Position numbers and translations under genes: made by a program. The notes under the pieces were generated by a model, which worked only from the letters and a program-made list of their open reading frames with translations, ran no database searches and was not told the DNA's origin. Below are positions 19,024-54,431 of a stretch of DNA of 64,000 nt, one piece after another. Each line of letters opens with the position of its first letter. Position 1 is the first letter of the stretch. Source of the DNA: a candidate division WOR-3 bacterium (GTDB lineage Bacteria; Hydrothermota; Hydrothermia; UBA1063); NCBI GenBank assembly GCA_039803545.1, contig JBDRYS010000002.1, positions 1-64,000 of the forward strand. Reading direction: 5' to 3'.

Positions 19024-20065
19024 GTTTCGCTTTTTCCTCAGCTTCAAGAAGCTTCTCAACAATGAGGTCGAGATCTCCGTTCAAAATGTCGTCTAACCTG
19101 TAAACGGTGAGGTCTATCCTGTGGTCAGTAACCCTATTTTGCGGAAAATTGTAAGTTCTTATCTTTTCGCTTCTGTCACCTGTACCTATGTAAGTTTTTC
19201 TCTTTATTCGCAATTCCTCTTCCATCTTTTTCTGTTCGAGGTCCTTTAATTTAGCCCTAAGGAGCCTTAATGCCTTTGCCTTATTTTTGTGCTGAGACCG
19301 TTCATCCTGGCATACAACCACAATGCCCGTAGGGATATGGGTAATTCGAACCGCAGAATCGGTCATATTTACATACTGACCACCAGGGCCTCCAGCACGA
19401 AAGGTATCAATTCGCAAATCCTCAGTGTTAATTTCTATCTCTGCCTCTTCTACCTCGGGCAAAACCACAACACTGGCAGTTGATGTATGAATCCTTCCAC
19501 CAGTCTCGGTAATGGGGATTCTTTGCACCCTGTGAACCCCTGATTCGTATTTTAATAGTCTGTAAGCATAGGGCCCCTCAACAATAAAGGAAATCTCCTT
19601 ATAGCCACCAAGGGGTGTGGGATGGGAGTCAATGATTGTAACTTTAAAACGCTTCTTCTCCGCGTACTTCAAATACATCTTAAAGAGGTCGGCTGCAAAG
19701 AGTGCTGCCTCATCTCCCCCTGTTCCAGCCCTAATTTCAACTATAGCAGTTTTAGGGTCATCGGGGTCCTCTGGTAAAAGAAGCCTTTTGATTTCTGTCT
19801 CCAATTCCTTTAGCCTCGCTGTAAGCTTCTCCTTTTCAGCCTCAAGATATTCCCTTAGGTTCTCATCCTTTTCTTCTCCCAGAATTTCCTCAATATCGGA
19901 AAGTTCTTTTTCTAACTTGTCCTTCTCTTCCAGCTTTTCAACAATGGGTTGAATCTTCTTGTACTCCTGCAATAAGGTCCTCCTCTCCTCATCAGAAAGG
20001 GAGGTAGCCAGTTTAAGCTCAATTTCTGCCATCCTGTTCTTTAATTCTTCAAGATTAACACTCAT
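19001..20065 (-). CDS. prfA: Peptide chain release factor 1
   Basis: RF1 terminates translation at UAA and UAG. This 354-residue protein has an N-terminal coiled coil, and the catalytic GGQ lies in [11 protein letters not shown]. The downstream [11 protein letters not shown] segment and the codon-recognition region are in place, and length is normal. Its ATG shares four bases (ATGA) with the stop of a 1229-residue secreted protease gene upstream. prmC, which methylates the GGQ glutamine, follows directly. Confidence 0.96.
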
Positions 20066-23000
20066 CTTATCACGACCCTTTTAATTAAATGTTTTGAGTT
20101 TTCAATTTTAACAAAATAAACTCCCATTCTAAGTTGTCCACTTTTCATCCGCTGTTCAAAATTAGCTTTACTTCCTTTGAAAATAAGCCTTCCTGTTACA
20201 TCGTAAACCCAATAATTTCCCCTTTTTGACTCAAAACCCACCTTTTGGTCCTCCTCCAGCTTTGACTCAATCACTGAAGGATTAAAGAAATCTGCGTTAC
20301 CAGTCCTATATCTGTCATGTTTATACATTGGCCAGTAGAGATTGTTGCTAATCCAGCTTGTTGAGAAAACGAACAGATTATTTCCCCAAGAGGAAGTTAC
20401 AAGTTCTTTAGTGCCATCGCCATTGATGTCCCAAATTTGAGGCGTAATGTAGGCATAAGAGAAAAGGTCCACGGGGAATCCCTGAATAACCTGCCCCGTT
20501 CGATTGTAAACATAGAGATATCCATCCACACTCCCTTTAAAAACCTCTCCACACCCGTCATTATCCACATCGTAAATTGTACAGGAAGAAAAACCACTGC
20601 CACAATAGGCACCGTAAATAAGAGATAAAGAATTACCGTTCACCTTGAAAACCTTGAAGCCACTACTACTTGGTATCGCTATATCTTTAATACTATCACC
20701 ATCTACGTCACCGAGGGCGGGAGAAATTGCATAGGGCCAGTAATTGGTAGATCCCACATACCCCTTCGCCAAAGTTACCCCAGTTGAACTTATAATATAA
20801 AGGGTGTCTCCAGCATAAACTACAATTTCCAAACCAGGAAAATCAGGTAAAATATCGCCGATGGAAGGGCTTGAAATGTTATCTTTGTTTACAGAGACTG
20901 GAAAGCCGGGCTTCATACGGAGAGCCGGATCCAAAACCCCTATGTATCCCGATGAACCTGTTGAATAGGAAACTATCACCTCCAGGGCACCATCGTTATC
21001 AATATCTCCACAGGCTGGAGAGGTACCTGAACCGCCTAAGTAAAGGCTATCACAAACCATTCCTCCGTTTTTAAAAATTTTTATGTTGTTACCATCTTTT
21101 ATAATTACTTCAGAAAGCCCGTCACCGTCAATATCACATACGCAAGGGGTTGAAGAGCCGGCACCGGGAGTTGAGACTGGAAATCCCGGTTTCTCAAGAC
21201 CATACTTATTTAGCACGTGGAGTGACCTCGTGCCATCCCTTGTGACAACTATGGCCTCCTCCTCCCCGTCACCATCAATATCCCCTGCCGCTATCGCCGC
21301 CAGAACGGTGCCATGCACGTTAACAGGCCAGCCGGGAAGCAGGTGCCCCATACAGTCAAAGGCATAAACCAAACTATCAAAGAATGTGGCAATGACAATT
21401 TCCAGTCCGGGCACATCCCTGTTAAGTTCGCAGATCACTGGAGTAGAGTATCCTGTTCCCAAGACCGGCTGGGGCCAGCCATCAAGATAGGGCGGGTTAG
21501 GAGAGGCAGAAATTACCGTTGAGGGGCTACTTTCTGCCTTCACCACTGTGTCAACCGATGTCACGTAATAATAAGCAAGACCTTCCGCTTCGTAATCCAC
21601 GAAGTTAGCCCCATTTATTAGGGTTTGGTTGATCCTTCGGTAAGTATTGCCATCAACACTTTTATAAACATTGAAAAGTAATCCATTTCCAGGTGATTTC
21701 CACTTCAGACCAACGCTCCCAATCCCCGGTGCACCGGTCAGATTAGTAGGAGGAGGTAATAAAGCAACACCCCCAGGGATCGAGATTGGAAGAGAATCTT
21801 TCATATAATACAAGAACAATCCTTCCGGGGCATCTTCTAAGAGCACTGAAACGCTAACCAAAGTATCATCATATGGACCCAGGGAGTCAATCCATGCAAG
21901 AAGATCTGAGTTGCTTTTCTGCGTAGCCAGTTTTAAATCCCTAATGGTGTAAAAATTCTGGTTAAAAATTTTGAGTAGTAGGCAATAATCCTCCACCCTC
22001 CTTAAAACTCTCAAATCCGTTATGCGAATTTCAGGAACGTAGTAATCAATTAAGATTGACTCCTCACTCTCAAATAAACCAAAACTTGTTCGTATTTTAA
22101 TCTTAGCCGCTCCCCCCTTCCCTACTTTCGCCACCATCCCACTCACAATAATCCTTTTCTCCTCAAAGGGCTTCAAGGTAATGGTAATAAGACTATCCTT
22201 AAAAGAAATAGGAAAATTACCTTTTAAAACAACTTGTAAGCTGTCAAAGTACTTTGATGAAGCGTTTTTAACACGAATTATCATATCAAAATTAGCATTG
22301 GATAATAAGATTGTATCCCCGTATTCATTTCTCACCGATTCAACAGCAAGCTGGATTGGCAAGGTGTAGGGTGTGACATACACTGAATCAAATACATCTT
22401 TAATTTCAGGAGCTGTAACTGAAATATAGAGAAAGCCAGGGGTCCTTGGATTTATTCTAAAATACGCCGAATCTTCAGTAGTTTCTCGGGTTTCAAAGAT
22501 TTCATTCTCTTTATAAATCACAAATTTTTTATCGACCACCCTTGACAAAGGCTCCAAAGGCGCAACCCTAACAACTATTGCAGTATCCTCGGAAGTAGTG
22601 ACCTTTGAAATCCGATAGTCTATGTATTTTCCCTTGATTGGAACTAAGGTGGGATCTCCCAGTAGATTGTAAGTTAATACGGAGTAATAGGTTATTAAAC
22701 TTGTACGGGCTTCACTGGAAAAGGCTTGTCGCATCGTGCTATCTGCTTCACCTATGGAGACACTGGCATCTGAAAAAAGCTTTTCATAAAATTTCCCGTA
22801 AAAAGAGATCGTATTGGAAATACCATCCCTTGTCTGGGACAGAATTCCAATACACGACGGGGCAAAAATGAGATGCTCTCCGAGTGCGTCTTTATCAAAT
22901 CCCCCAATGTCGCAGGACAAAATACCCCAGAAGGAAGGTACAGAGCTTCGTACCAATGAAATATCGGTGATACCAAAGGAAATAGTGGGACTCTGATTTA

Positions 23001-23751
23001 TATACAAATTACCGAAATCTCCATGGGCACAGGAAAATATGTAACCTACCCCAGCACTTACGCTGTCAATGAACTGGTTTTTATTAACGTCAATATTGGA
23101 TCCGATTTCATAAAGCTTACTAAGATTAAAAACCGAAGGAACCACACGTGAAAGGCTGTCCGTTAATTTGTAGGAGTTTCCATTTTCCAATATGTCTGAA
23201 CCATGTAACAAAAACTTGGTCGCATCGCCTTTAAGTGTTTTATAATTCATCAATTTACTGAAATAGCCCCTCAGTTCATCGAGGTTATGATAAGGAATTC
23301 TCCCCACGATTACGTTAGGCACTAAGTTTATAGAGTCAGCTTGCTCTCCAAAAAGCCCATTCCTATTCTTATCCCAATCAGAATAAAGCTCAGCGTAGTA
23401 AAAATCGGTAGGTACATTGTTAGAAGTCTCGCTGGTGCCTATTCTCACGTAGGCAATCCTGGCTGGTACTTTGTAGTAATCTCCGAGAAGCAAAAGATAC
23501 CTGACACCATAGTTTTCCTTGTAATACCTAACTCCATTTCTGATTTTTTCAGTCAAATCTAATCCAGGAAATCTTTGTTCAATTTCCTCCACAGAAACAA
23601 AAGCACTTGGGATACCTAATTTGTATTTGTAATCGGTAAAAGCGGAGACTACTTGCCGTACCTCTTCTCTACCGACAACGAGGAGCTCTATATTCCTGCT
23701 ATAACTTAAATTAGGAGTTCCAATAAATAAAATCGCGAATATTATATGCAC
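20062..23751 (-). CDS. C25 (gingipain-like) protease with FN3, FG-GAP/VCBS repeats and Por-type sorting tail
   Basis: This 1229-residue secreted protein starts with a short signal peptide. The C25 catalytic domain (about residues 20-372) has His243 (SCAHGDFG) and Cys280 (ILSCDIGG) as the predicted dyad. Beta-sandwich regions follow, then a fibronectin III-like domain near 665-745. At least six Asp-rich FG-GAP/VCBS calcium repeats (DIDGDG, DIDNDG, DVDGDS, DVDNDG, DINGDG) come after that. The last about 60 residues ([12 protein letters not shown] ... KRVVIR) match a Por-type sorting tail. The start is GTG at 23751 with no clear ribosome-binding site, 15 bases after rplU. The end overlaps prfA by four bases. 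Confidence 0.92.
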
Positions 23752-28028: not shown

Positions 28029-28377
28029 TGTGCTCTATCTCCCTATTTCGTCCCTTTATCCCTATGAAGTCAAACCTGACCGCACCATACCAGCCCTTTT
28101 CCATCAAATAAACCGAAGCAACCTTCAAAAGATTCTCCCGCTTGTGGAAAGTAATTGTTTCCGAAGGCTCCATAAAATTACCACTGAGACTTCGCACCTC
28201 TACAAAAACAAGCGTACCCTCTTTAAGGGCAATGATATCGATCTCACCGAATTTTTTCCTATAATTCCTCTCAACTACCTTGTAACCTTTTGATATAAGA
28301 TACTTAACAGCAAGGTCTTCGAACTCCCTACCCTTTGATTTAGAAGCTTTGCCTTTGAAGATCCGAGGGAGAAACAT
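28006..28377 (-). CDS. yraN: UPF0102 (YraN) family endonuclease-like protein
   Basis: This 123-residue protein has the YraN nuclease-fold signature: KGREFEDLAVKYL, the GEIDIIA motif and FVEVRSLSG, which together supply the Asp and Glu-x-Lys-type positions of the restriction-like fold. Here the last position reads EVR instead of EVK. The cellular role is not established. It overlaps the upstream GWxTD gene by 38 bases and the downstream DUF1232 gene by 23. Confidence 0.9.
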   Translation of the reverse strand: MFLPRIFKGKASKSKGREFEDLAVKYLISKGYKVVERNYRKKFGEIDIIALKEGTLVFVEVRSLSGNFMEPSETITFHKRENLLKVASVYLMEKGWYGAVRFDFIGIKGRNREIEHIESFFEV

Positions 28378-29656
28378 ACTTCATCCAGTCTGGCTTTGAA
28401 GGTTCACTGGGGTCTGAAGAGTAAACAAGCTCGTAATCGCCGGTATTTTTTATATCCACAAAGACAAACTCCTTAAATCCTCCAGAGTAATAGAGCCAGT
28501 GTTCACGATTTCTCGAGGTCAAACCAAAGGTTACCCTATTTACTTCATCAGGAGGACCAAATTTTATATAAATTCTGCCCCTATCGGTAAGCCTTCCGGG
28601 TTTTTCAGGAAGGGAAAAGTTTTCATCGGCATATTTACATCTTTTTACAAACTCTACAAAAAATTCGTTGTATTCGGTATTTGGTGTAGGGTCAAATTTT
28701 TTCCAGAATTTTTTGAGAAATAACAGCTTACCCTCTTCTGGCAATTCCCTAAACTCTCTTAACTCTTCTGGCGTTGCAAAATAGTCAATGAAATAAAAGT
28801 AGGTTAAATTTTCTGCTTCTCCCTGTGCAGTTAATTCAGAGGAATAGTAAATAAACTCCCTATCCCTTATCACAGAATTTCCCGTCGATGGGTCTACTGC
28901 CTGAACCTTTAGGGTATATCTGCCTGATTTCAATCCCTCCAGTAGGATTCCATCCCTTATAACAGGTAGTTCATCCCTGCCTCTCTTAATAGGTGATGAA
29001 GCCCTAACCAAGCTGCCCTTTTCGTCTAAGATAAAATACCTCACAAAATAGGGTATCGTATCCTTTCCTAAATGGTAAAGTTCCAAATAAAAGTACAAGG
29101 TATCTTTGCCTGAGTAATATATTCCTGAAGGGTTTGGTATTTGAACGTACCCAAACTTACCAAACACAGTGTCCTCACCCGGATAAGATGTAAGGAGAAG
29201 TTGAAGATCAGAGGCACTTAATGAGGTATCCACTTCCAATGTATTCACGCTAAACTTCACCGAACCTTTGCTCTTTGAATTTAAATCTGAAACTGTAAAA
29301 GTTATCTCATAATTTCCCGGAACAAGGGAAGCCCAGAACTTGTCTATAGAAAAATTCAAGGGCTTCGTTGTCCTTTGAGTCCACTGAGAAATTATGGGAT
29401 TTTTTAAATTTGAGCCTCTAATCTCGACCTTTGCCATAAAACCCATAAGATTGTCCTTCTTTTTGAGGGAATTTAAATTAATCATGTAACTAAATTCACA
29501 CACTGTGATTGAATCGGATCTTAAAAACCTTGAACAATCGACCACAAAATCCACTTTGCCCTCGCTCTTGTAAACCTGCGAGGGGACCTGGATAAAGACC
29601 CCCTCACTTTTTGAGGAGCTCGTAAAAAATATAGCGAGGAGGATCAACAATTTCAT
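28340..29656 (-). CDS. GWxTD-domain secreted protein, copy 1
   Basis: This 438-residue protein has a short signal peptide (MKLLILLAIFFTSSSKS) and an N-terminal beta-sandwich region. A C-terminal GWxTD domain of about 120 residues follows, containing FWKKFDPTPNTEYNEFF, YADENFS and RLTDRGRIYIKFGPPDE. GWxTD domains are known mainly from uncultivated FCB-type lineages and have no established function. The upstream neighbour is a paralogue with the same domain order. It overlaps that gene by 53 bases and yraN by 38. Confidence 0.85.
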   Translation of the reverse strand: MKLLILLAIFFTSSSKSEGVFIQVPSQVYKSEGKVDFVVDCSRFLRSDSITVCEFSYMINLNSLKKKDNLMGFMAKVEIRGSNLKNPIISQWTQRTTKPLNFSIDKFWASLVPGNYEITFTVSDLNSKSKGSVKFSVNTLEVDTSLSASDLQLLLTSYPGEDTVFGKFGYVQIPNPSGIYYSGKDTLYFYLELYHLGKDTIPYFVRYFILDEKGSLVRASSPIKRGRDELPVIRDGILLEGLKSGRYTLKVQAVDPSTGNSVIRDREFIYYSSELTAQGEAENLTYFYFIDYFATPEELREFRELPEEGKLLFLKKFWKKFDPTPNTEYNEFFVEFVKRCKYADENFSLPEKPGRLTDRGRIYIKFGPPDEVNRVTFGLTSRNREHWLYYSGGFKEFVFVDIKNTGDYELVYSSDPSEPSKPDWMKYVSPSDLQRQSF

Positions 29657-30758
29657 AATCTCCTACCCCCTTTAAGTCCATAAATACAAACCGATAATTT
29701 TTGTAATAATAGTACCACACTTCGTAAGAAGGGGCTTCCAATTCGAAGGGATGTCTTTCAATCTCATCAGGAGGCCCAAGTACAATGTAGCAAATCCCCC
29801 TGTCGGAAAGTGCACCCCGCTTAAGATGGGATGAAAAATTTTCATCGGCGTACTCCACCCGATTCCAGAACTCCTCTTCGAACTCGTTGAGGTCCGTTTC
29901 AGGTGTTGGATCACGCCTCTTCCAAAACCTTTCCCAATAGCTCTTAAGAGAATCAGGGTCCTTTTTATAATAATTGAAGGAATCCAGTTCAGGCTGTGGC
30001 ACTAAAAAGGATAGAATCGTAATGATTTGATTTAATTCCGTAGGCGTAAAGTCAATAGGAAGGGTAAACAGAGTCAATGGAGCTTCTCTTTCCTCCTTCC
30101 CTGCAAGGAGAACAACCTTGTAGCTACCTGACTTCAAATCTTTGAAGCTTACTTCAATAAAATTGTCCCCCCTGTTTAAAACCCCCTTTACTTCGTAAAC
30201 AGGTTTTAGGGCAACAATCTGCAATTTGAAGGGGAGAGAATCAACAAGACACTTTACATAAAAAACCCCCTTTTTGCCTCGTATATAGGACGAAGACGGT
30301 CTTTTTGAATTTTCCATAAGGGCCATTGAATCAAGTAGGATTGGATCAGAAATTAAATCCGGAGCCTTTAAGGCCTGAACGAATTCTGCAATGACATTCC
30401 CTTCCGAATCCCTTAACCGAAAACGGACTCTGTATTCTGAATGCCTCTGGAGCTTAAAGGTGAACATCCTCTGGTACCATATAGGCTGCTTGGTTTCTTT
30501 AAATGTCGATGTGACAACCTCCATTGGCCAGCTGTTACCGAAAAGAAGATTTTTCCTTTCATCAAAGACTTCGGCCTGGAGCTCTGCATAGCTTTTATAG
30601 TGATCAGCCTCTTTGTAAAAAATCAAATTTTGCCTATTAAAACTAACAAAGGTGATAAACTGTACAGAATCTCGAATATCGTCAGGGATCAAATAGACCA
30701 ATACTTCGCTCTTCTTTGAAGTGTAGAGACTGAAGAGGATCGCAAGAAGAAGATTCAT
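29604..30758 (-). CDS. GWxTD-domain secreted protein, copy 2
   Basis: This 384-residue paralogue of the next gene has an N-terminal hydrophobic signal (MNLLLAILFSLYTS) and a beta-rich first half. Its C-terminal GWxTD domain includes FWKRRDPTPETDLNEFEEEF, YADENFSSH and ALSDRGICYIVLGPPDE. The DRG.xYI.xGPPDE core is shared with copy 1 while the N-terminal halves differ, so the pair looks like an old tandem duplication. It overlaps yceD by four bases. Confidence 0.85.
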   Translation of the reverse strand: MNLLLAILFSLYTSKKSEVLVYLIPDDIRDSVQFITFVSFNRQNLIFYKEADHYKSYAELQAEVFDERKNLLFGNSWPMEVVTSTFKETKQPIWYQRMFTFKLQRHSEYRVRFRLRDSEGNVIAEFVQALKAPDLISDPILLDSMALMENSKRPSSSYIRGKKGVFYVKCLVDSLPFKLQIVALKPVYEVKGVLNRGDNFIEVSFKDLKSGSYKVVLLAGKEEREAPLTLFTLPIDFTPTELNQIITILSFLVPQPELDSFNYYKKDPDSLKSYWERFWKRRDPTPETDLNEFEEEFWNRVEYADENFSSHLKRGALSDRGICYIVLGPPDEIERHPFELEAPSYEVWYYYYKNYRFVFMDLKGVGDYEIVDPPRYIFYELLKK

Positions 30759-34140: not shown

Positions 34141-36711
34141 TTACTTTATTAAAACCCCCTTATAGGACCCGATCACCTTTCCATCCATCTCTACTTCAGC
34201 AAAGTAGACACCAGAAGCCAGATTCCTCAAATCTATTTTTTCGCTTTCGGAATCAGAAACCTTAACTAACCTTTGAACAACTTTCCTACCGGAGGCATCG
34301 TAGAGGGAAACTTTCAAGCTTTTACCCTTAAGGCCAGCTCCTCTCAGAACTATATAAGGTCCCTTCCAATCCACTTTCACTTCATAACGGAGAGGCCTTT
34401 CGATCACGCTTACAGGCGTTGAAGTCAGGGTTGCAAAATAGCTAATATCTCTGACCGTAGAAGCATAAGGCGTATTTTGAGGCCACCATCCAACGATCTT
34501 GGAACCATCGGTCACTTTAACAAAGACCTTCGGCATGAAGGAAGAATAGTCTCCCGATAAATTCAGATAATAAGCGGGACCCGAACCAGAAAGCCCTATA
34601 GGAATTGCAACCTCAGCATACTTTACATTGTTCTGTACAGTGTAAGCCTGCGGTAAAGTTAAAGTCTGTATTGTTCCAGTTCCCGAAGAAGTATATGGTT
34701 TGAAGTAACTCAATCTCGTAGTACCGTCTCTAAAGGTGATTTCACCCTCGTTGCTATTACTCGCCGGGAAAGAACCATCCCCATTATCGTCAATCACAAA
34801 GGTTATGTAATCGTTATTACCCAAGGTACTGTCGCCGATTACTTTAAAGGCTACAAAAAGGGTATCATGGAATATATGGGATTTCATGTAGGTCTCTCTT
34901 ATGGTTCTGTGTGTTTCTCCATTAGCTGCGAGAAAATTACTAATATCAAGCCAGGGGGAGCCGTAATATTCGAGGTCATCAACGACTCCATCAACTATGT
35001 GAGGCATCCAGTAATTGTCACCTTCAGAACGAGCTACATCATAACCCCTGACTATACTTTTGGCATAGTAAAGGCCAATTAAAGAATCATCCCTTGGTAC
35101 GTCATCAGTCGCAGTTAGGCCAATGTGGTAACTATATTCACAATCATCAATGGATGGAGTGAAGTAAACGCTCACAGTGTCAGCCATTCCAGTATCAACA
35201 GAAATCCCGGTTACAGTCGTATCGTAAACCAGATCACCAGATTCGTTGTATACCTTAAAGTTCAAGTCTCTATTGAGCAAGGTGAATCCATTATTGAATA
35301 CCCTGAGTTTGAACTCTGAAGAAGCATTGAGGGTGTCAGCCCTTGGAACAGAAATTGATGTCACTTTAATATTGTTATAACTGGAGACCATAAGGTCTGC
35401 ATACATCGTGTCACCAGGGTTTGAAATGTTTAGCACGCCAACATAGGTTGTAATCATTGGATTTCCATAATCCTTTGAATCAGGAATTGAATAATTATGG
35501 AAATCCCTATTGTTGCTTGTACCTGGCCATGGATCTCCCGCATCACCCCGGTTTATATTGTGTTCTAAGTCCCATCGACCATCAGCCTGCTCCAGTGCAA
35601 CCTTGTAATGGTAAAGATAATTCTGCCCTGGGTACCACTCGTTGTTGTTATTAGCCCTTGCATCGTCAATATGATAAATCAGAAGTCCCTCACCTGGTAA
35701 AGCTCTGTCAAATTTCTTTAACCTTCTATTTTCTACAAGGAAATATCTGTTGTCCGTCGCACCATTTGTCCAGAGTCTAAAAATTATTCCTGTATCCTCA
35801 ACGGCCGGAATACTCTGGTAAATTCTATTGCTACTGACAGTATCGACCCTCACAAATCCGAGCCTGTATTTACACCATGCGTCTAAATGGGAAGGAATAG
35901 CGCCACCTCCATTCCAGGAACCACCGGCCATTAGCGACCAGTTGCCAAGCCCTTCTGAAGAATAATCTGTGTCATAAAGATCTGGAAGTCCCAGGGGTCT
36001 GTGACCCATTTCATGAGCAATAACACCGCAACCCGCATTTTCTGGAACTGTCGTATACCAATAGGCCTGTTTTCCATCCACTATCAAAGTAGTAGGAATA
36101 ACCCACGCGTGAGACCAAATGTCATTTGGATCCCCTGTAGATTCAGCTCCTGGACCTGCATGTACAATAACGAGGGCATCAACATATCCATCGTTATCCA
36201 TATCACACTGGGAGAAATCTATATAAGGATCAGCGGCAACGACGGCGTCATAAGCCATTTTCTGAGCATTCTGAGGCCAATCACCCATTCCATAATTGTT
36301 ATTAGTATAATAAGTATAAGGGTTGGGTAACCTCACCCAAACGGGCGTTACCAAGAATTGAAACTCCAGATTTCCATACGAATTCTCTAAATAAAATTCT
36401 TTAACACTCCCCGTGGTAAAAGGCCCATTTGTCAAGGAATCGTAATGTGCCGCGGGTGTGGTCCCTACATTATCGGAGAAATCGCACATTATAACTACTG
36501 CCCTTTTAATAACCTTCGTTTTCGTTTCCCGAGCGACTTGCATCTCTTTATTCATTTTATCCATCAGCTCTTCCGAAGGAGCATCCATTCCTCTCTTTCT
36601 GGCATCCTCCATTATGGAAACCCAGCTTTGCAGGTTTCCACTCTTTCTCATTTGCTCTAATACCTCCGGGCTTGGAGGCATAAGTAATATCAGTGAAAGC
36701 AATAAATTCAT
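34141..36711 (-). CDS. M6-family secreted metalloprotease with Por-type sorting tail
   Basis: This 856-residue protein has an N-terminal signal segment and an M6 (immune inhibitor A-like) catalytic domain at about residues 65-350. The zinc motif is HEMGHRPLGLPDLYD (His233, Glu234, His237). It has one residue more between the second His and the Gly than the usual HExxHxxGxxD. Beta-sandwich domains follow, and the last about 80 residues carry a sorting tail (SLYDASGRKVVQRL ... GVYFAEV). The substrate is unknown. A G-rich ribosome-binding site (AGGGGG) precedes the ATG. Confidence 0.92.
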   Translation of the reverse strand: MNLLLSLILLMPPSPEVLEQMRKSGNLQSWVSIMEDARKRGMDAPSEELMDKMNKEMQVARETKTKVIKRAVVIMCDFSDNVGTTPAAHYDSLTNGPFTTGSVKEFYLENSYGNLEFQFLVTPVWVRLPNPYTYYTNNNYGMGDWPQNAQKMAYDAVVAADPYIDFSQCDMDNDGYVDALVIVHAGPGAESTGDPNDIWSHAWVIPTTLIVDGKQAYWYTTVPENAGCGVIAHEMGHRPLGLPDLYDTDYSSEGLGNWSLMAGGSWNGGGAIPSHLDAWCKYRLGFVRVDTVSSNRIYQSIPAVEDTGIIFRLWTNGATDNRYFLVENRRLKKFDRALPGEGLLIYHIDDARANNNNEWYPGQNYLYHYKVALEQADGRWDLEHNINRGDAGDPWPGTSNNRDFHNYSIPDSKDYGNPMITTYVGVLNISNPGDTMYADLMVSSYNNIKVTSISVPRADTLNASSEFKLRVFNNGFTLLNRDLNFKVYNESGDLVYDTTVTGISVDTGMADTVSVYFTPSIDDCEYSYHIGLTATDDVPRDDSLIGLYYAKSIVRGYDVARSEGDNYWMPHIVDGVVDDLEYYGSPWLDISNFLAANGETHRTIRETYMKSHIFHDTLFVAFKVIGDSTLGNNDYITFVIDDNGDGSFPASNSNEGEITFRDGTTRLSYFKPYTSSGTGTIQTLTLPQAYTVQNNVKYAEVAIPIGLSGSGPAYYLNLSGDYSSFMPKVFVKVTDGSKIVGWWPQNTPYASTVRDISYFATLTSTPVSVIERPLRYEVKVDWKGPYIVLRGAGLKGKSLKVSLYDASGRKVVQRLVKVSDSESEKIDLRNLASGVYFAEVEMDGKVIGSYKGVLIK

Positions 36712-47933: not shown

Positions 47934-47962
47934 TTGACTCTAAACGAGAAAAAAATTAAAAT
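47934..47962 (+). promoter_or_regulatory. Promoter of pilT, leaderless type
   Basis: TTGACT (47934-47939), a 17-base spacer and TAAAAT (47957-47962) end 9 bases before the pilT ATG. No Shine-Dalgarno is present. Confidence 0.75.
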
Positions 47963-47971
47963 TTTAAAACT

Positions 47972-49126
47972 ATGGGAATTGATTTAGAGAAACTTTTATT
48001 AGATGCAAAAGACAAAGAAGCGTCGGATGTCCACATAAAAGTGGGACATCCGCCAATTTTCAGAATTTACGGAAAGCTATACTTCAGAGATAATTACCCT
48101 GTTGTTACGAGAGAAGATACTGAAGAACTTATAAGAAATTACCTAACTCCTGCCAAGCAAAAGGAGCTGAGGGAAAGGTACAGCGTTGACGTCGCCTTTA
48201 GCTTTCCAAATATCGGTAGATTCAGGGTTAACATATTCAGCCAGAGAGGCACATGGTCCTTTGCCATAAGAGCAATACCACCTCTTATTAAAACCATCAA
48301 AGATTTAAACCTACCTCCCGTCCTGGAAAAGATAGCCATGGAGGATAGGGGACTGATTCTTGTAACAGGTGTTGCAGGCTCTGGAAAATCTACAACCCTC
48401 GCAGCTATTTTAAACCATATCAATGTAAACAAAGCAGTGCACATTATAACAATTGAGGACCCTATTGAATACCTTTTAAGAGATATCAAGAGCATTATAA
48501 GCCAGAGAGAGGTCGGACTTGACGTGCTCAGCTTTGCAGATGGACTCAGGGAAGCTCTTAGACAGGACCCCAATGTAATAATGGTTGGAGAAATTAGGGA
48601 TGAAGAAACCGCTTCCATTGCTTTGCTTGCAGCTGAAACAGGACACTTAGTTTTGTCAACCTTACACACTCTCGATGCCAGAGAAACAATAAATAGAATT
48701 GTAAGTATTTTCCCTGCACATCAGCAAGAGCAGATAAGACACCAACTTGCCTCCGTACTAAAGGCAATTGTCTCCCAAAGGCTCATACCAAGGGATGATA
48801 TGCCTGGAAGAATCCCCGCCTGCGAAGTTATGGTGAACACAGCGCGTATTCGAGAAATGATCCTTGATCCTAAGAGAACCCACGAGATTTTTGATGCTAT
48901 TGCTGACGGTTATATACCTTATGGAATGCAAACCTTTGACCAATCTTTATATTACTGGTACAAATTGGGTTATATTTCAGAAGAAACCGCCCTGGCATAC
49001 GCAACAAAGAGAGAAATACTTGAGTTAAGAATGAAGGGTATTGCCTCGGGCGGTGAGGGTGGAAGAAATTGGGAAATCTTTGAAAGAATGGCTTTGAGAA
49101 AAGTTCAAGAAAAAGGAGGAATTTAA
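47972..49126 (+). CDS. pilT: Type IV pilus retraction ATPase PilT
   Basis: This 384-residue hexameric motor ATPase pulls type IV pili back. An N-terminal PAS-like domain contains ASDVHIKVG. The core has Walker A GVAGSGKST (about residues 133-141), the Asp box ITIEDPIEYL, Walker B EALRQDPNVIMVGEIRD and the His box TGHLVLSTLHT. The C-terminal sequence includes the retraction-type RMKGIA segment. No pilin or pilB gene is in the window. The next gene, a roadblock protein, begins 3 bases later with its own ribosome-binding site (AAGGAGG). Confidence 0.95.
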   Translation: MGIDLEKLLLDAKDKEASDVHIKVGHPPIFRIYGKLYFRDNYPVVTREDTEELIRNYLTPAKQKELRERYSVDVAFSFPNIGRFRVNIFSQRGTWSFAIRAIPPLIKTIKDLNLPPVLEKIAMEDRGLILVTGVAGSGKSTTLAAILNHINVNKAVHIITIEDPIEYLLRDIKSIISQREVGLDVLSFADGLREALRQDPNVIMVGEIRDEETASIALLAAETGHLVLSTLHTLDARETINRIVSIFPAHQQEQIRHQLASVLKAIVSQRLIPRDDMPGRIPACEVMVNTARIREMILDPKRTHEIFDAIADGYIPYGMQTFDQSLYYWYKLGYISEETALAYATKREILELRMKGIASGGEGGRNWEIFERMALRKVQEKGGI

Positions 49127-49129
49127 GAA

Positions 49130-49498
49130 ATGGCCAAGATTGATGATGTAATGCAAGAATTTCTCAACAATGTAGACGAAGTGCTCATGTCGATGATAGT
49201 AAATCTGGACGATGCGATTCCTATCACGGGGCACACAACGGACGAATCAATTGATGTCACTGTTCCTCTTGCTTTTCTTACAGAAGTAGCAAGAAAGGCA
49301 ATGTCCGCAACTGAAAACGCAGGTCTGGGCGCCTGTGAAGACGTGCTTCTCACCACAAGCGACTATTTCATTATTGTAAGAATCATACCAAATTCCAACT
49401 ACGTACATATTGTCGTTCTGACAAGAAAAGGGAATTGGGGAGTCACCAAAATTCTAATGGGGAAATTTGCACCTAAGTTCAGAGAGGCTTTACCGTAA
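49130..49498 (+). CDS. Roadblock/LC7-fold protein, MglB-like candidate
   Basis: This 122-residue protein has the alternating helix-strand order of a roadblock/LC7 domain: helix VMQEFLNNVDEVLM, strands around DDAIPITGHT, helix FLTEVARKAMSATENA, strands EDVLLTTSDYFIIVRII and a final helix. Small roadblock proteins such as MglB act as GTPase-activating partners of MglA. Placement next to pilT and opposite an MglA-type GTPase supports such a role, but sequence similarity is modest. It ends 95 bases from the convergent MglA gene. Confidence 0.7.
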   Translation: MAKIDDVMQEFLNNVDEVLMSMIVNLDDAIPITGHTTDESIDVTVPLAFLTEVARKAMSATENAGLGACEDVLLTTSDYFIIVRIIPNSNYVHIVVLTRKGNWGVTKILMGKFAPKFREALP

Positions 49499-49593
49499 AG
49501 TGTTTCAAAATTCCCAAGCAGGCATGGTTTTAATAATAAACTTAAAATAAAAGAATCAATTGTAATTTCAAAAAACTTTTAGATGCTGATTAG

Positions 49594-50211
49594 CTATTTC
49601 TTTTGTTGAAGTAAAAAACTTAGTTGTTGTTGACGCAATGAGTTCTTCACTACTTCATTAATCATCATTTGTAAGGTTTGAAAAACACCCTTGCCTTCTG
49701 TTGCTATTGCTAAAACATAAGGATATTTGTAAATGTTAACCTTCTCTTCAAGCACCGACACAGGCAATGCATCGGGGTGATCCCGCTTATTGTATTGGAC
49801 AATAATGGGAACTCTTCTGGTTGCGCTCCACATCCCATATTCTTGAAGGGTATCATGCATTTCCTTGTATATAGCAATATTTTCTTCAAGCCTCTCTTTA
49901 TCTGAATCAGCAACGAAAATAACACCGTCTGCACCCTTTAAAACCAGCTTCCTCGCCTGTTTATAGAACACCTGACCAGGGACAGTGTAAAGACTGAATA
50001 TGGTTTTATATCCTTTCAATATAGGAAGTTCAAGGGGAAGTAGATCGAAGAACAGGGTTCTTTCACCTTTAGTATCGACAGACAAGAGTTGACCTTTTTT
50101 ACCCATAAATCTTTCGTAAATTTTCTTAATATTTGTGGTCTTTCCACTTAAACCAGGGCCGTAATAGACAATTTTAAACTTTATCTCATGCTTCTTGAAA
50201 TCTATTAACAC
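49594..50211 (-). CDS. mglA: MglA-type small Ras-like GTPase
   Basis: This 205-residue GTPase has Walker A GPGLSGKT (residues 18-25), the switch region TVPGQ (76-80; Asp of the usual DxxG is absent, as in MglA) and the specificity motif NKRD (141-144). MglA sets front-rear polarity and pilus placement. No membrane anchor is visible. It follows the response-regulator gene by 40 bases in the same direction. The MglA subfamily assignment rests on the P-loop and TVPGQ features. Confidence 0.9.
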   Translation of the reverse strand: MLIDFKKHEIKFKIVYYGPGLSGKTTNIKKIYERFMGKKGQLLSVDTKGERTLFFDLLPLELPILKGYKTIFSLYTVPGQVFYKQARKLVLKGADGVIFVADSDKERLEENIAIYKEMHDTLQEYGMWSATRRVPIIVQYNKRDHPDALPVSVLEEKVNIYKYPYVLAIATEGKGVFQTLQMMINEVVKNSLRQQQLSFLLQQKK

Positions 50212-50251
50212 CGCTGTCTCCCGGCTTTATTATAAGGCTAATTAAGCGTTT

Positions 50252-51673
50252 TTATATTGCCTTTGCTATCTCTGCTATAAGCTCTTTAACCTTAATCTTC
50301 ACGAGGGCGATCTTCATACTTTTTACTGGAATCACGGCGATCACAATCAGATTCCCATTCTTTGCCTCGGTAATTAAGAGGTGATATTTGTCTGACGAAA
50401 GTGTAATATCCCTTATTGCACCAACTGGAGTTTTCGAAGCTATCTGAATTATGTTTCTGAATGCAGGCGCCCAGGTCTTTAATACTTGAGAGACTCCTGT
50501 AGTCACCCTTTCTGATATATTAAGAATATTACCTTCACCATCAACCGCAACAAGAGCAAGGATATCCGAAATTTCCTTAACCACACTGGAAAATTTATCT
50601 TTGAGCTCCTGACTTAACTTTGACGAAACCGCACTCACCTCTGGAGTTGGTGCTGGAGTCTCAACCTTCTTCTCTACAACTTTTTCTTCAACGATTGGAA
50701 TTTCTACAGCTTCTTCTTCTCTTGCCTCTTCCTTCTTGGGAGCCTCTTCTGCACTTAAACCTTCGAGTATGCTCTCTACTTCCTCGAGAGTTACAGTGCC
50801 TTCTTCCTTCTCCTCAACTTGTGCTTCTTCAGTTACCTTTTTCTCAATCTCTTCAGGGATTTCTTCCAATTTAACTTCAAAACTCTCCTCTACTTCAGGA
50901 ATTTCTTCTTTCTCAACGGGTTCCCCTTCCGAAACACCTTCATCCTTAAACAACTCCGATAATGCCTGGAGATCGAGTCCTGAGATCTCCTCGCGTGCTA
51001 CAACCTCTTCGTCTTTCTGAACCGCTGCAGAAAGGAGAAGTGCGTGGAATGGTTTTTCTATTTCTCTCTTTACTTTAGGGCTTCCCCATTTAACTTTAAA
51101 GGAACTTTCGGGCTCCTTCATTATTCTCGTAAAGGCTTCTTCGCCTCTCAAATTTCCCAAGGAAGCGTTAATTACCTCTCCATCCTCGAAGAAAATCTTG
51201 CCTTCACCCTCGGAAGTGTTGACGATCACCTCGCAGGACTTACCTTCCATAGCAACGAGTTGCAGGAACTGCTGGAGGGTAAGATTTTTTAAAGTTTCCT
51301 CTTCCCCACCCTTCTCCTTCTCCAGTATAACATTGAGAATCTGGTCAAAATCAAAGGGTTTCTCCAGGTAACTAATGGCACCTTTTGTCATCACATCTTG
51401 CCTTATTTCATCAGAGCCGTATGCAGTCATTACAATTACCTTTATATCGGGCTGAATCTTTCTGGTCTCCATGAGAAGTTCTACACCACTAAGACCTGGC
51501 ATGCGAATGTCAGTAACAAGAAAATCAAAGGACTTTTTCTTTATTTTCTCTAAAGCCTCCAAACCATTGGAAGCAGTCTCCACCTCGATTTTATGTCTTG
51601 TTAACTCTTCAGAAAGCCCCCAAAGAATGTCTTCCTCGTCATCCACCAGCAGAACTTTGATAGGCATAATCAC
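50252..51673 (-). CDS. Response regulator with PATAN/DUF4388 and C-terminal roadblock domain
   Basis: This 473-residue protein has four parts. The N-terminal receiver has acidic pair Asp11/Asp12, phospho-acceptor Asp55 (LVTDIRMPG) and Lys105 (LEKPFDF). A PATAN/DUF4388-type domain (about 118-215) follows, with the GKIFFEDGEVINAS signature. A long, highly acidic Glu-rich linker covers about 215-350. The C-terminus (about 355-473) is a roadblock/LC7-like domain (ISDILALVAVDGEGNIL). No DNA-binding domain is present, so output should act through protein contact. The start shares four bases with the kinase stop. Confidence 0.85.
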   Translation of the reverse strand: MIMPIKVLLVDDEEDILWGLSEELTRHKIEVETASNGLEALEKIKKKSFDFLVTDIRMPGLSGVELLMETRKIQPDIKVIVMTAYGSDEIRQDVMTKGAISYLEKPFDFDQILNVILEKEKGGEEETLKNLTLQQFLQLVAMEGKSCEVIVNTSEGEGKIFFEDGEVINASLGNLRGEEAFTRIMKEPESSFKVKWGSPKVKREIEKPFHALLLSAAVQKDEEVVAREEISGLDLQALSELFKDEGVSEGEPVEKEEIPEVEESFEVKLEEIPEEIEKKVTEEAQVEEKEEGTVTLEEVESILEGLSAEEAPKKEEAREEEAVEIPIVEEKVVEKKVETPAPTPEVSAVSSKLSQELKDKFSSVVKEISDILALVAVDGEGNILNISERVTTGVSQVLKTWAPAFRNIIQIASKTPVGAIRDITLSSDKYHLLITEAKNGNLIVIAVIPVKSMKIALVKIKVKELIAEIAKAI

Positions 51674-53064
51674 ACCTCCTTAACTTTTTGCTCCACACAC
51701 CCAATAGCCTCGGGTGTGGCAGGATGAAAGTATAGCACAAAAGTTGTGCCTTTTCCAACCTCTGAATAAACCCTTATAATTCCTCTGTTTTCTTTAACCA
51801 TTTTATCCACCACGTAAAGGCCAAGGCCCCAACCCTCGGCCTTGGTAGAAAAGCCGAGATTAAAAATTCGATCAAGGTCTTCCTTTTTTATTCCAGGTCC
51901 TGTATCTGAAACTTCAATTTGAACGAAATTAGAACCACAGTATGGGCAGCGATTTTCACTCCGTTTGACATTAACGGCTATTTTCCTTATCCCCTTCTGG
52001 TTTTTCAAAGCATCTATGGCATTTTGAATTAAATCAGACAAGATTTGCTGGAGGTGAATTTCATCTGCATAGACAAGTTCATTACCGTTTTGGTTAAATT
52101 CGAATATAATTCCATTGTTTATAAGCTCATTGTTAAGTAAAGATTTGACGCGCTCCACAACTTTCTTTACATTGACTTTTTTAAATTCTATGGGCTTTGT
52201 TTTAACCCTACTGTAGAAGGCTCTGACGTGCTGATTTATCTTTTCTATGTGTGTAACCATTCTATCAATTTTCTCGAGGAGTTTAGGATCAGTGAGTTCC
52301 CTCCTCAGACTCAAGGCAGTAAATTTTAAGGGGGTAAGAAGATTTTTAATGTGATGGGTGTAAATCGAAACGAGGTCCACATAAGAAAAGTAACTACCTG
52401 ACCCACTGGCTGTTCTCTCAAAATTTTTCTCAGCGGTAATATCTTTTATTTTCAACAAAAAGCCTTTTAGATCGGGCAAATTCAGAGGATAAACACTTAT
52501 ACCCAAAATGCTACCCGAGGCATACTCAATCTCCATATTTTTTTGTCCAATTTTAACCCTCTCTATTATCTTTGCTCCTATCCCGTAAGGGAGCTGATCT
52601 AAATGGGTAAAAAGGTGCCTCTGGAAATACGTAGAAACAAAACTATTATGATATATGACGCGAAATTCCGAATCGACGACCACAATGCCAAAATCGAGAT
52701 AATCAAGGATTAACTTTTCTGGAAGAACCTGTTCCTCATTTTTGAGATAAAGAAAGATCCTGTCTTGCGCAACATAAAAGTTGGCGTAAAAGGGCAGATA
52801 GACGTTCTCTTTACTTTTTATGATGAGCCTCTGACCAAAAACTGTCTTATTTGTAACCTCCGAAAACTTTTTCTCTAAAATTGGTCTTATATGGCCAGCT
52901 ACAAGATGCAAGAAATTTGTCCCTATAATTTCTTCCTCAGAAAATCCGAGACTCTTAACGCTGTCACTCGCATAGATGACATTTTTTTTACCGTCCAAAA
53001 TGAGAAAAATTTCTGGACTTAAAGAAAGCAGCTTCTCAATATCTGCAGTATTCACTAACTTCAT
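51670..53064 (-). CDS. PAS-domain sensor histidine kinase with CxxC insert
   Basis: This 464-residue kinase has no membrane helix. Two PAS-type regions (about residues 5-110 and 117-210) precede the dimerisation domain, where His237 or His238 (THHIKNLLTPL) should be phosphorylated. The ATPase domain follows: N box DLIQNAIDAL, G1 SDTGPGI and G2 GWGLGL. A CPYCG knuckle (Cys373, Cys376) sits between the first strand and G1, an uncommon place. It is flanked by a FIST-domain gene upstream and a response regulator downstream, so it probably receives its signal from a FIST ligand sensor. Confidence 0.9.
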   Translation of the reverse strand: MKLVNTADIEKLLSLSPEIFLILDGKKNVIYASDSVKSLGFSEEEIIGTNFLHLVAGHIRPILEKKFSEVTNKTVFGQRLIIKSKENVYLPFYANFYVAQDRIFLYLKNEEQVLPEKLILDYLDFGIVVVDSEFRVIYHNSFVSTYFQRHLFTHLDQLPYGIGAKIIERVKIGQKNMEIEYASGSILGISVYPLNLPDLKGFLLKIKDITAEKNFERTASGSGSYFSYVDLVSIYTHHIKNLLTPLKFTALSLRRELTDPKLLEKIDRMVTHIEKINQHVRAFYSRVKTKPIEFKKVNVKKVVERVKSLLNNELINNGIIFEFNQNGNELVYADEIHLQQILSDLIQNAIDALKNQKGIRKIAVNVKRSENRCPYCGSNFVQIEVSDTGPGIKKEDLDRIFNLGFSTKAEGWGLGLYVVDKMVKENRGIIRVYSEVGKGTTFVLYFHPATPEAIGCVEQKVKEV

Positions 53065-53073
53065 CTTTTCTCG

Positions 53074-54351
53074 CTACTCCGAAAGAATCTGCAAGGCGAA
53101 AGAGGAATTATGGAACCACTTAAATTCCGGACTGGGTCTAAGAAATTCACCAAAGGTTGTAAAGCCTACTAAAGGCATCGCAAGCTTCCTCTGGAAGAGA
53201 TTTACTTCCTCGAAAAAGTCATTTCCAAGGGAAAAGTACCTATGGATACTTTCAATCACAAGACTTCCAATGGGCTTACGCTGATCTATAGCAACAAACG
53301 CCTGATCAATACTCTGTGTTACCGCTTCTTCCATTCTATCCTTCCTCGCTTCCATAAACCAAACAGTGGAATTTTCAGGAATATCACCTGCAAGCCTTAT
53401 CCCACCTTCACTTGTAATTCCAACAGCAATCCTTACTTTAGGATATTTAGGATAAGCCGGGTCAGGCACACCAAATTGATACTTACCTAAGAATTTTGTG
53501 GGATCTTTGTTGATTTCAGCTTCTGGTATCCCCTTCTTCACTAAGAATTCCTTCCAAACCTCAAAGGCTGGGCGTTCATCGAAGTGGTATATCACATTAC
53601 CACCAACCTTAGTAGCCCTCTTAGGTACTAAAGGATGCAAACCATGTCCGTGGGATATAGCGGGCGGCGTTTTTGAGTAAATACCTATACAGGCAACACC
53701 TCCATTTATAAGCTGATTTGCCAAATGAAGTTGGCAATCCTTAGAGAGCTTCGCGTAATCAAGGATCCCACCGTAGAAGGTAATATTCGGATCATACCTA
53801 TCCACTATCCTGGAAAGTTCCGTCACGAGGATATCTCCATTTACATAGGAGTCCAATACAAGAAACATGTTTAGGTGTTCAAACCCTTCTACCTTTCTCG
53901 CCTTGATCTGATCGAGAACCGGTAAGCATGCTTTTTCCAGTGCGGAATGGAGCCCTTGATGGATATTTGTACCAACCGAATAGGTGAACTTATAAGAATC
54001 GCTCTTAACTATCGCAACAATCACACCTGAGTTCAAAACAGTATTTTCTGTAAATACGATGCCGAGCGTTTTTAAAGCGACATAGGGGACATCCTTACCA
54101 ATAGATTGCAAAACACCCTTTACAACAGGGTCCAAGTCATAGTTCGAAGTTGCAAAAATGAATGCAAAATCTGGCTTGGTTTTGGAGAGTTTTTCAAAGG
54201 CAGCCCTGCCGGCCTGAACCCCCGCCTTCCATGGAGAAGGATCCTGCGAGAAACCCGTAGTCATTCCCGAAACCAAAATAGGACCACGCTGAACTTCCTC
54301 TTCAGCCCCTTTACCTACCCCAATTCTCGGGGCAGTTGGTTCTCTTTGCAT
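53074..54351 (-). CDS. FIST-domain sensory protein
   Basis: This 425-residue protein matches the FIST_N (about residues 27-235) and FIST_C (about 260-415) pair, seen in SGMTTGFS, FIFATSNYDLD, LVLDSYVNGD and ITFYGGILDYA. FIST domains are predicted to bind small ligands such as amino acids, and often lie near two-component genes. No membrane segment is present. It precedes the histidine kinase with a 9-base gap. The ATG at 54351 has GGTGG upstream; a stronger AAGGAGG site about 45 bases upstream sits before an in-frame ATT, so the N-terminus could be longer. Confidence 0.88.
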   Translation of the reverse strand: MQREPTAPRIGVGKGAEEEVQRGPILVSGMTTGFSQDPSPWKAGVQAGRAAFEKLSKTKPDFAFIFATSNYDLDPVVKGVLQSIGKDVPYVALKTLGIVFTENTVLNSGVIVAIVKSDSYKFTYSVGTNIHQGLHSALEKACLPVLDQIKARKVEGFEHLNMFLVLDSYVNGDILVTELSRIVDRYDPNITFYGGILDYAKLSKDCQLHLANQLINGGVACIGIYSKTPPAISHGHGLHPLVPKRATKVGGNVIYHFDERPAFEVWKEFLVKKGIPEAEINKDPTKFLGKYQFGVPDPAYPKYPKVRIAVGITSEGGIRLAGDIPENSTVWFMEARKDRMEEAVTQSIDQAFVAIDQRKPIGSLVIESIHRYFSLGNDFFEEVNLFQRKLAMPLVGFTTFGEFLRPSPEFKWFHNSSFALQILSE

Positions 54352-54403
54352 CTTTTTCCACCAATCATCATTCAGGAAAATTTTCTAATCCTCCTTTTGC
54401 AAC

Positions 54404-54431
54404 ATTATATTAATAAAGCAACTCAAATCAA
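54404..54431 (-). promoter_or_regulatory. Promoter of the FIST-kinase-regulator operon
   Basis: TTGATT (54426-54431, minus strand), a 16-base spacer and a perfect TATAAT (54404-54409) precede an AAGGAGG element about 5-10 bases downstream. The leader is about 45 bases, longer than in the leaderless set. Confidence 0.6.

Follow-up and report, generated by a model that had tools for sequence, protein, structure and literature searches.

MglA elsewhere sets cell polarity and pilus activity. In Myxococcus xanthus it belongs to a polarity module composed of MglA, MglB, RomR/RomX, RomY and MglC, in which RomR recruits MglC and MglC recruits MglB (PMC10329633). The locus described here shares with that module a group 1 MglA, type IV pili, an MglC-like roadblock protein and a receiver protein with an acidic region. 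It differs in that MglB appears undetectable, the regulator has both a PATAN and a roadblock domain, and the operon also encodes a FIST protein and a kinase. RomR ends in a Glu-rich C-terminal helix, whereas the regulator found here ends in a roadblock domain and also carries PATAN, so the likeness is architectural only.

Three other systems resemble parts of the locus. In the NosP-NosK-NosR operons, which serve nitric oxide/haem sensing, the FIST protein NosP binds the kinase NosK and governs its autophosphorylation, and NosK in turn phosphorylates NosR (PMC12570481). There, as here, adjacent genes encode a stand-alone FIST protein, a membrane-free kinase and a response regulator; however, the regulator of that system has a c-di-GMP output domain, while ours has PATAN and roadblock domains and lies beside mglA, and our kinase, unlike NosK, has PAS domains. 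PATAN response regulators (PatA, PixG and relatives) combine a receiver with PATAN as in our regulator, which has in addition an acidic linker, a C-terminal roadblock, and FIST and kinase partners. A neighbourhood link of PATAN regulators to MglA/MglB was noted in 2006 and 2014, the latter report placing PATAN genes near group 1 and group 5 MglA, without FIST (PMC4316618). Actinobacterial conservons (CvnA-D) also unite a histidine kinase, a roadblock protein and a small MglA-family GTPase in one operon, but their GTPase is of group 2 and they have no response regulator, compared with the group 1 GTPase, response regulator and FIST sensor here. In the open-licence literature searched, we found no description of FIST combined with MglA, a roadblock and a histidine kinase in this way. 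The original prediction that no described system has this exact composition must be qualified, as PATAN near MglA (PMC4316618) and the NosP-NosK-NosR system (PMC12570481) were already known.

Gene layout and domain composition

The window, meaning the whole 64,000-nucleotide stretch that was analysed, covers the beginning of contig 2 in a genome of 1.67 Mb and 99% completeness. The genome belongs to a lineage of the WOR-3/Hydrothermota type, which is heat-loving and mostly uncultured; Hydrothermota is now the phylum Caldifarciminota in NCBI. Families of relatives are referred to by labels, f1 being that of the window. Domain searches, a PDB match (MglA), and profiles and folds (roadblocks) agree that the six genes named in the original prediction are present and correctly named. 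Their coordinates confirm that pilT and a roadblock gene on the plus strand face a FIST-kinase-regulator-mglA run on the minus strand:

47972..49126, plus strand: PilT-type retraction ATPase, the genome's second PilT paralogue (TIGR01420, 439.7 bits)
49130..49498, plus strand: stand-alone MglC-like roadblock protein (MglC 7ct3 profile match, AF2, Foldseek)
49594..50211, minus strand: MglA, group 1 small GTPase (TtMglA match, R51, TVPGQ)
50252..51673, minus strand: response regulator with receiver, PATAN, acidic linker and roadblock (Pfam, profile, AF2, Foldseek)
51326..51655, minus strand: receiver domain of the regulator, residues 7-116 (PF00072, E 2e-28)
51005..51295, minus strand: PATAN/DUF4388 domain of the regulator (PF14332, E 3.7e-14)
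50618..50968, minus strand: variable acidic linker of the regulator, ~120 residues, 33% D+E
50255..50614, minus strand: C-terminal roadblock domain of the regulator (MxMglB profile match, AF2, Foldseek)
51670..53064, minus strand: soluble PAS histidine kinase with phospho-acceptor His237 (HATPase_c, E 1e-22)
53074..54351, minus strand: stand-alone cytoplasmic FIST_N + FIST_C sensor protein (PF08495, E 1.6e-15; PF10442, E 4.5e-20)

On the plus strand the roadblock gene follows pilT after 3 bp. On the minus strand the kinase gene follows the FIST gene after 9 bp and overlaps the regulator gene by 4 bp, mglA follows after a further 40 bp, and the two runs converge.

Neither roadblock was seen by Pfam Robl_LC7, which gave zero matches in the genome and was rejected as a roadblock test because it is too insensitive, two roadblocks being present. 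Since these domains are invisible to Pfam, profiles were built from relatives. The profile of the regulator tail, built from relatives' sequences (A1), matches Myxococcus MglB (E 1e-6) and can be aligned to the MglB family with a probability of 97%. The AF2 model of the tail (pLDDT 86) has helices and strands in roadblock order, and its best Foldseek matches are roadblock/MglB structures (TM about 0.8). The roadblock tail that had been predicted is thereby upheld, while the PATAN/DUF4388 domain and the acidic linker had been overlooked. Pfam finds only the receiver and DUF4388 in the regulator, with no c-di-GMP output domain, and the phosphorelay residues of the receiver (DD, D, T, K) are intact. 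Within the genus the receiver, PATAN and tail are 73–99% identical against 50–67% for the linker, indicating that the tail is a constrained domain. The linker reaches 297 residues and 46% D+E in relatives. Between families the tail diverges fast (20–26% identity) and PATAN is better conserved. A second PATAN-bearing response regulator is encoded in the same genome, away from mglA (G000:C1:24936-26060, equivalent to L089:7937-9061).

The phospho-acceptor His237 of the kinase is present in 20 of 20 relatives, and sequence examination revealed no membrane segment in the kinase or the FIST protein. Inside the ATP-binding domain of the kinase (51670-53064, minus strand) lies a CPYC motif (C373 and C376), conserved in f1 and f2 and not conserved in other families, which is possibly a metal or redox site. 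The FIST protein is the only FIST_C protein of the genome. Conservation of its His and Cys residues does not decide haem or nitric oxide binding, and nitric oxide is no more than a possible ligand; a cultured WOR-3 isolate, which has pili, uses neither nitrate nor nitrite as electron acceptor. In f2 a second, diverged FIST gene lies beyond mglA, a few genes away on the opposite strand and among unrelated genes (L036:10238-11485, minus strand; L035:5099-6352; L037:4688-5920), its product being 27–31% identical to that of the window.

MglA is a single-copy gene whose product matches Thermus MglA in the PDB (E 4e-60). Group 1 MglA is defined by TVPGQ in G3 and by an intrinsic Arg that adjoins the G2 Thr (PMC4316618). 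The window's MglA has both, with R51-T52 and TVPGQ, and R51 is invariant in 18 relatives. The usual coupling of group 1 MglA to an MglB gene was not found in this genome; orphan group 1 members are known, so the assignment stands.

PilT scores well above the TIGR01420 cut-off of 319. The genome's other PilT, 45% identical, adjoins PilB and a PilC-like protein in a type IV pilus locus. The profile of the stand-alone roadblock protein (alignment A4) matches only MglC (7ct3, E 1.3e-4) and an archaeal roadblock, and does not match MglB at E 1. Its AF2 model (pLDDT 91) retrieves roadblock structures by Foldseek (E 1e-8). By sequence it is closest to Myxococcus MglC rather than to MglB. It keeps the GN-aromatic-G motif of MglC. 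Two further MglC features are, by eye, partly kept: the F25-D26-I28 motif aligns with L, D and I, and the basic patch K104/R106/R110 with V, K and G. MglC, its closest solved relative, does not bind MglA.

Elsewhere in the window (20062-23751, 28340-30758 and 34141-36711, all minus strand) are a peptidase C25 with FG-GAP repeats, two GWxTD-domain proteins and an M6 peptidase carrying a Por-type C-terminal sorting domain. These proteins hint at a type IX-like secretion route.

Conservation of the neighbourhood

The complete six-gene layout was found within the genus only. FIST, kinase and MglA occur together in five families (f1, f2, f8, f3 and f9), as do kinase, regulator and MglA (f1, f2, f8, f6 and f3). 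FIST-kinase-regulator-mglA remains the order in f2 and f8, at 31–40% FIST identity. Elsewhere it is shuffled, reading kinase-regulator-mglB-mglA in f6, FIST-mglB-mglA-kinase-regulator-roadblock in f3, and FIST-mglB-mglA-kinase in f9, where no such regulator lies beside the kinase. When 15 window genes flanking the block were searched in the loci of eleven relatives, only two gave one isolated match each. Retention of the block across families with different flanks and a shuffled internal order is more than chance.

Phylum-wide searches gave a count of 27 class genomes with both FIST and MglA, and in 19 of these the two lie no more than 5 kb apart; chance alone would bring them this close in ~1% of genomes, allowing for up to two FIST genes and a 10 kb span in about 1.9 Mb. 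In G002 and G008 the two genes are split by contig ends, which is compatible with linkage. FIST is unlinked to mglA in f6 and f5, and also in two FIST-bearing f14 genomes outside the class. The unlinked FIST genes of f6 and f5 and the missing regulator of f9 indicate that not every part is obligatory. One apparent mglA loss (G004) was rejected as natural, because a contig end cuts the regulator there. The search outside the phylum took in the 80 MglA loci from named genomes that are most similar and found no FIST-MglA link there; these loci contained MglB in 63 cases, PATAN in eight and FIST in one, itself a class member. The regulator adjoins mglA, not pilB/pilC, in every family where it could be placed.

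The pilT-roadblock pair behaves as a separate unit. In f2 it is found elsewhere in the genome with an 8 bp overlap, in f8 a roadblock gene lies beside mglA without pilT, and in f3 a distant roadblock relative (E 4e-9 in L056) follows the regulator, again without pilT. Pairing with pilT in f2 and proximity to mglA or the regulator in f8 and f3 link the roadblock protein indirectly to both PilT and MglA. The original prediction is therefore supported in part: the association of FIST, kinase, regulator and MglA extends well beyond the genus in different surroundings, so that for these four genes the refuting outcome named with the prediction, a neighbourhood not conserved in relatives, did not occur, but the six genes as one conserved unit must be rejected, as the layout is confined to the genus and the pilT-roadblock pair travels separately.

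Two further arrangements were observed. Past the roadblock gene, the f3 operon encodes protein phosphatase-like and protein kinase-like products (L045:12169-14009 and L056:6076-8069; identified by eye from N-terminal sequences), a hint that the polarity module may undergo Ser/Thr phosphorylation. In another phylum member, a stretch of less than 3 kb carries four tandem mglA-like genes, all on the same strand (G069:C2:208597-211535).

Apparent absence of MglB and origin of the roadblock tail

In most class relatives mglB lies immediately upstream of mglA. A profile built from 21 MglB proteins found MglB at this position in f3, f4, f6, f9, f10 and others, but nothing in f1 or f8, and in f2 matched only the regulator tail, in three of four genomes. 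The same profile missed two known f1 roadblocks, so its silence alone is weak evidence. With the better-fitting tail profile, the only roadblocks found in the window's genome were the tail itself and the MglC-like protein. Canonical MglB thus appears undetectable in f1, f2 and f8, where the regulator with its roadblock tail sits at the usual place of mglB.

One residue of MglA varies together with this absence. In Myxococcus MglA, MglB binds to a surface made up of the beta-2 residues F56, F57 and F59 (PMC6785124). The F59 position is Phe in 26 of 26 readable relatives outside f1, f2 and f8, and Leu in all nine relatives from those three families as well as in the window. Among 61 readable loci outside the phylum it is Phe in 59, Tyr in L149 and Leu in L145, neither of the last two loci having an MglB match. 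Because the Phe-to-Leu change represents one or two events on the tree, its coincidence with the absence of detectable MglB is only suggestive. L063 has no mglB next to its mglA and yet keeps Phe, and 17 of the 80 MglA loci outside the phylum have no MglB match in their flanks.

The tail did not arise by recent capture of the neighbouring mglB gene. A tree of 50 roadblocks unites the stand-alone proteins in one clade (96/97) and groups the MglBs with Myxococcus MglB, with the regulator tails outside that cluster; several long branches leave the deeper order unsure. The tail thus has a roadblock fold and an MglB-like profile, yet does not group with MglB in the sequence tree. Recent fusion was rejected on this separation and because f6 and f3 carry both the roadblock-tailed regulator and a separate mglB, and the tail represents a distinct and older lineage. 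The likeliest history is that an old PATAN-roadblock regulator stood beside mglB-mglA and that mglB was then lost once or twice (the MglA tree does not settle f8).

Proposed signal path and alternative explanations

We propose with moderate confidence that FIST, kinase, regulator and MglA constitute one signalling module, the relay output of which affects the MglA switch and, through it, type IV pili. The NosP-NosK-NosR precedent leads us to infer the same front end. The FIST protein would bind a small ligand and set the autophosphorylation or phosphatase state of the kinase, as NosP does for NosK, and the kinase would phosphorylate the receiver domain of the regulator. The PATAN and roadblock outputs may then act on the MglA polarity switch, and so on the pili. 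Phosphorylation would most likely change the interaction of the regulator with MglA and/or the MglC-like roadblock, altering MglA activity and the pili, and the MglC-like protein, encoded 3 bp after the second pilT, could connect the MglA switch to pilus retraction. With canonical MglB undetectable, no candidates for the roadblock partner of MglA are known besides the tail and the MglC-like protein. By analogy, an output on MglA comparable to that of RomR/MglC is the best reading. We infer the direction of the signal, the physical contacts, the effect on the MglA nucleotide state and the PilT link; control of MglA by FIST and a phosphorelay, the mechanism first predicted, is plausible. Several observations count against the proposal: not every part is obligatory, the tail diverges fast between families, its residues at the alpha-2 positions are bulkier than those of MglB, and MglC does not bind MglA.

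A stricter version holds that in f1, f2 and f8 the regulator took over the role of MglB. The tail, alone or with the MglC-like protein, would be the GAP/GEF partner of MglA, and phosphorylation would directly set the nucleotide state of the GTPase. We regard this as possible but rather doubtful. MglB contacts MglA through alpha-2 (PMC6785124). By eye from the alignment, the tail has bulkier residues where those of MglB alpha-2 are small, which counts against a simple MglB-like contact.

The regulator might instead act through PATAN on the pilus motor (PilB/PilC), in the manner of PixG and its relatives in cyanobacteria, MglA being a parallel or upstream localiser and the tail serving only to dimerise or localise the regulator. 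PATAN regulators do bind PilB1 and PilC in Synechocystis (PMC12288463), a PATAN domain is present here and is the better kept of the two between families, and the genome has a type IV pilus locus. The regulator is nevertheless tied to mglA and not to the motor genes in every placed family, and its roadblock tail is retained despite divergence, making this alternative unlikely.

Also improbable, and overlapping with our preferred explanation, is that the regulator does not touch MglA but serves as a RomR-like scaffold, recruiting the MglC-like protein to a pole via its linker or tail, so that MglA and the second PilT are positioned by this complex and not by a GAP reaction. In RomR a receiver is joined to a disordered part and a Glu-rich C-terminus, the latter binding the MglC basic patch (PMC10329633); our regulator has a receiver and an acidic linker, and its candidate partner resembles MglC and keeps the GN-aromatic-G motif. 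That basic patch is only partly kept, however, and in f2 the roadblock gene does not lie near the regulator. Finally, the genes could be neighbours without a common pathway (operon hitch-hiking), as the genus-specific six-gene layout and the displaced pilT-roadblock pair of f2 might suggest, but the selective retention of FIST, kinase, regulator and MglA despite different flanks and order leaves this strongly disfavoured and very improbable.

In Myxococcus the parts are encoded at scattered sites, and the route by which signals reach MglA is still being worked out. In the 1.7 Mb genome of this thermophile lineage, a single short operon encodes sensor, kinase, regulator and GTPase, and MglB is apparently missing. 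Should the roadblock of the regulator act on MglA, the operon would provide a minimal and directly testable circuit from a phosphorelay to a small GTPase, and would show that MglB can be replaced.
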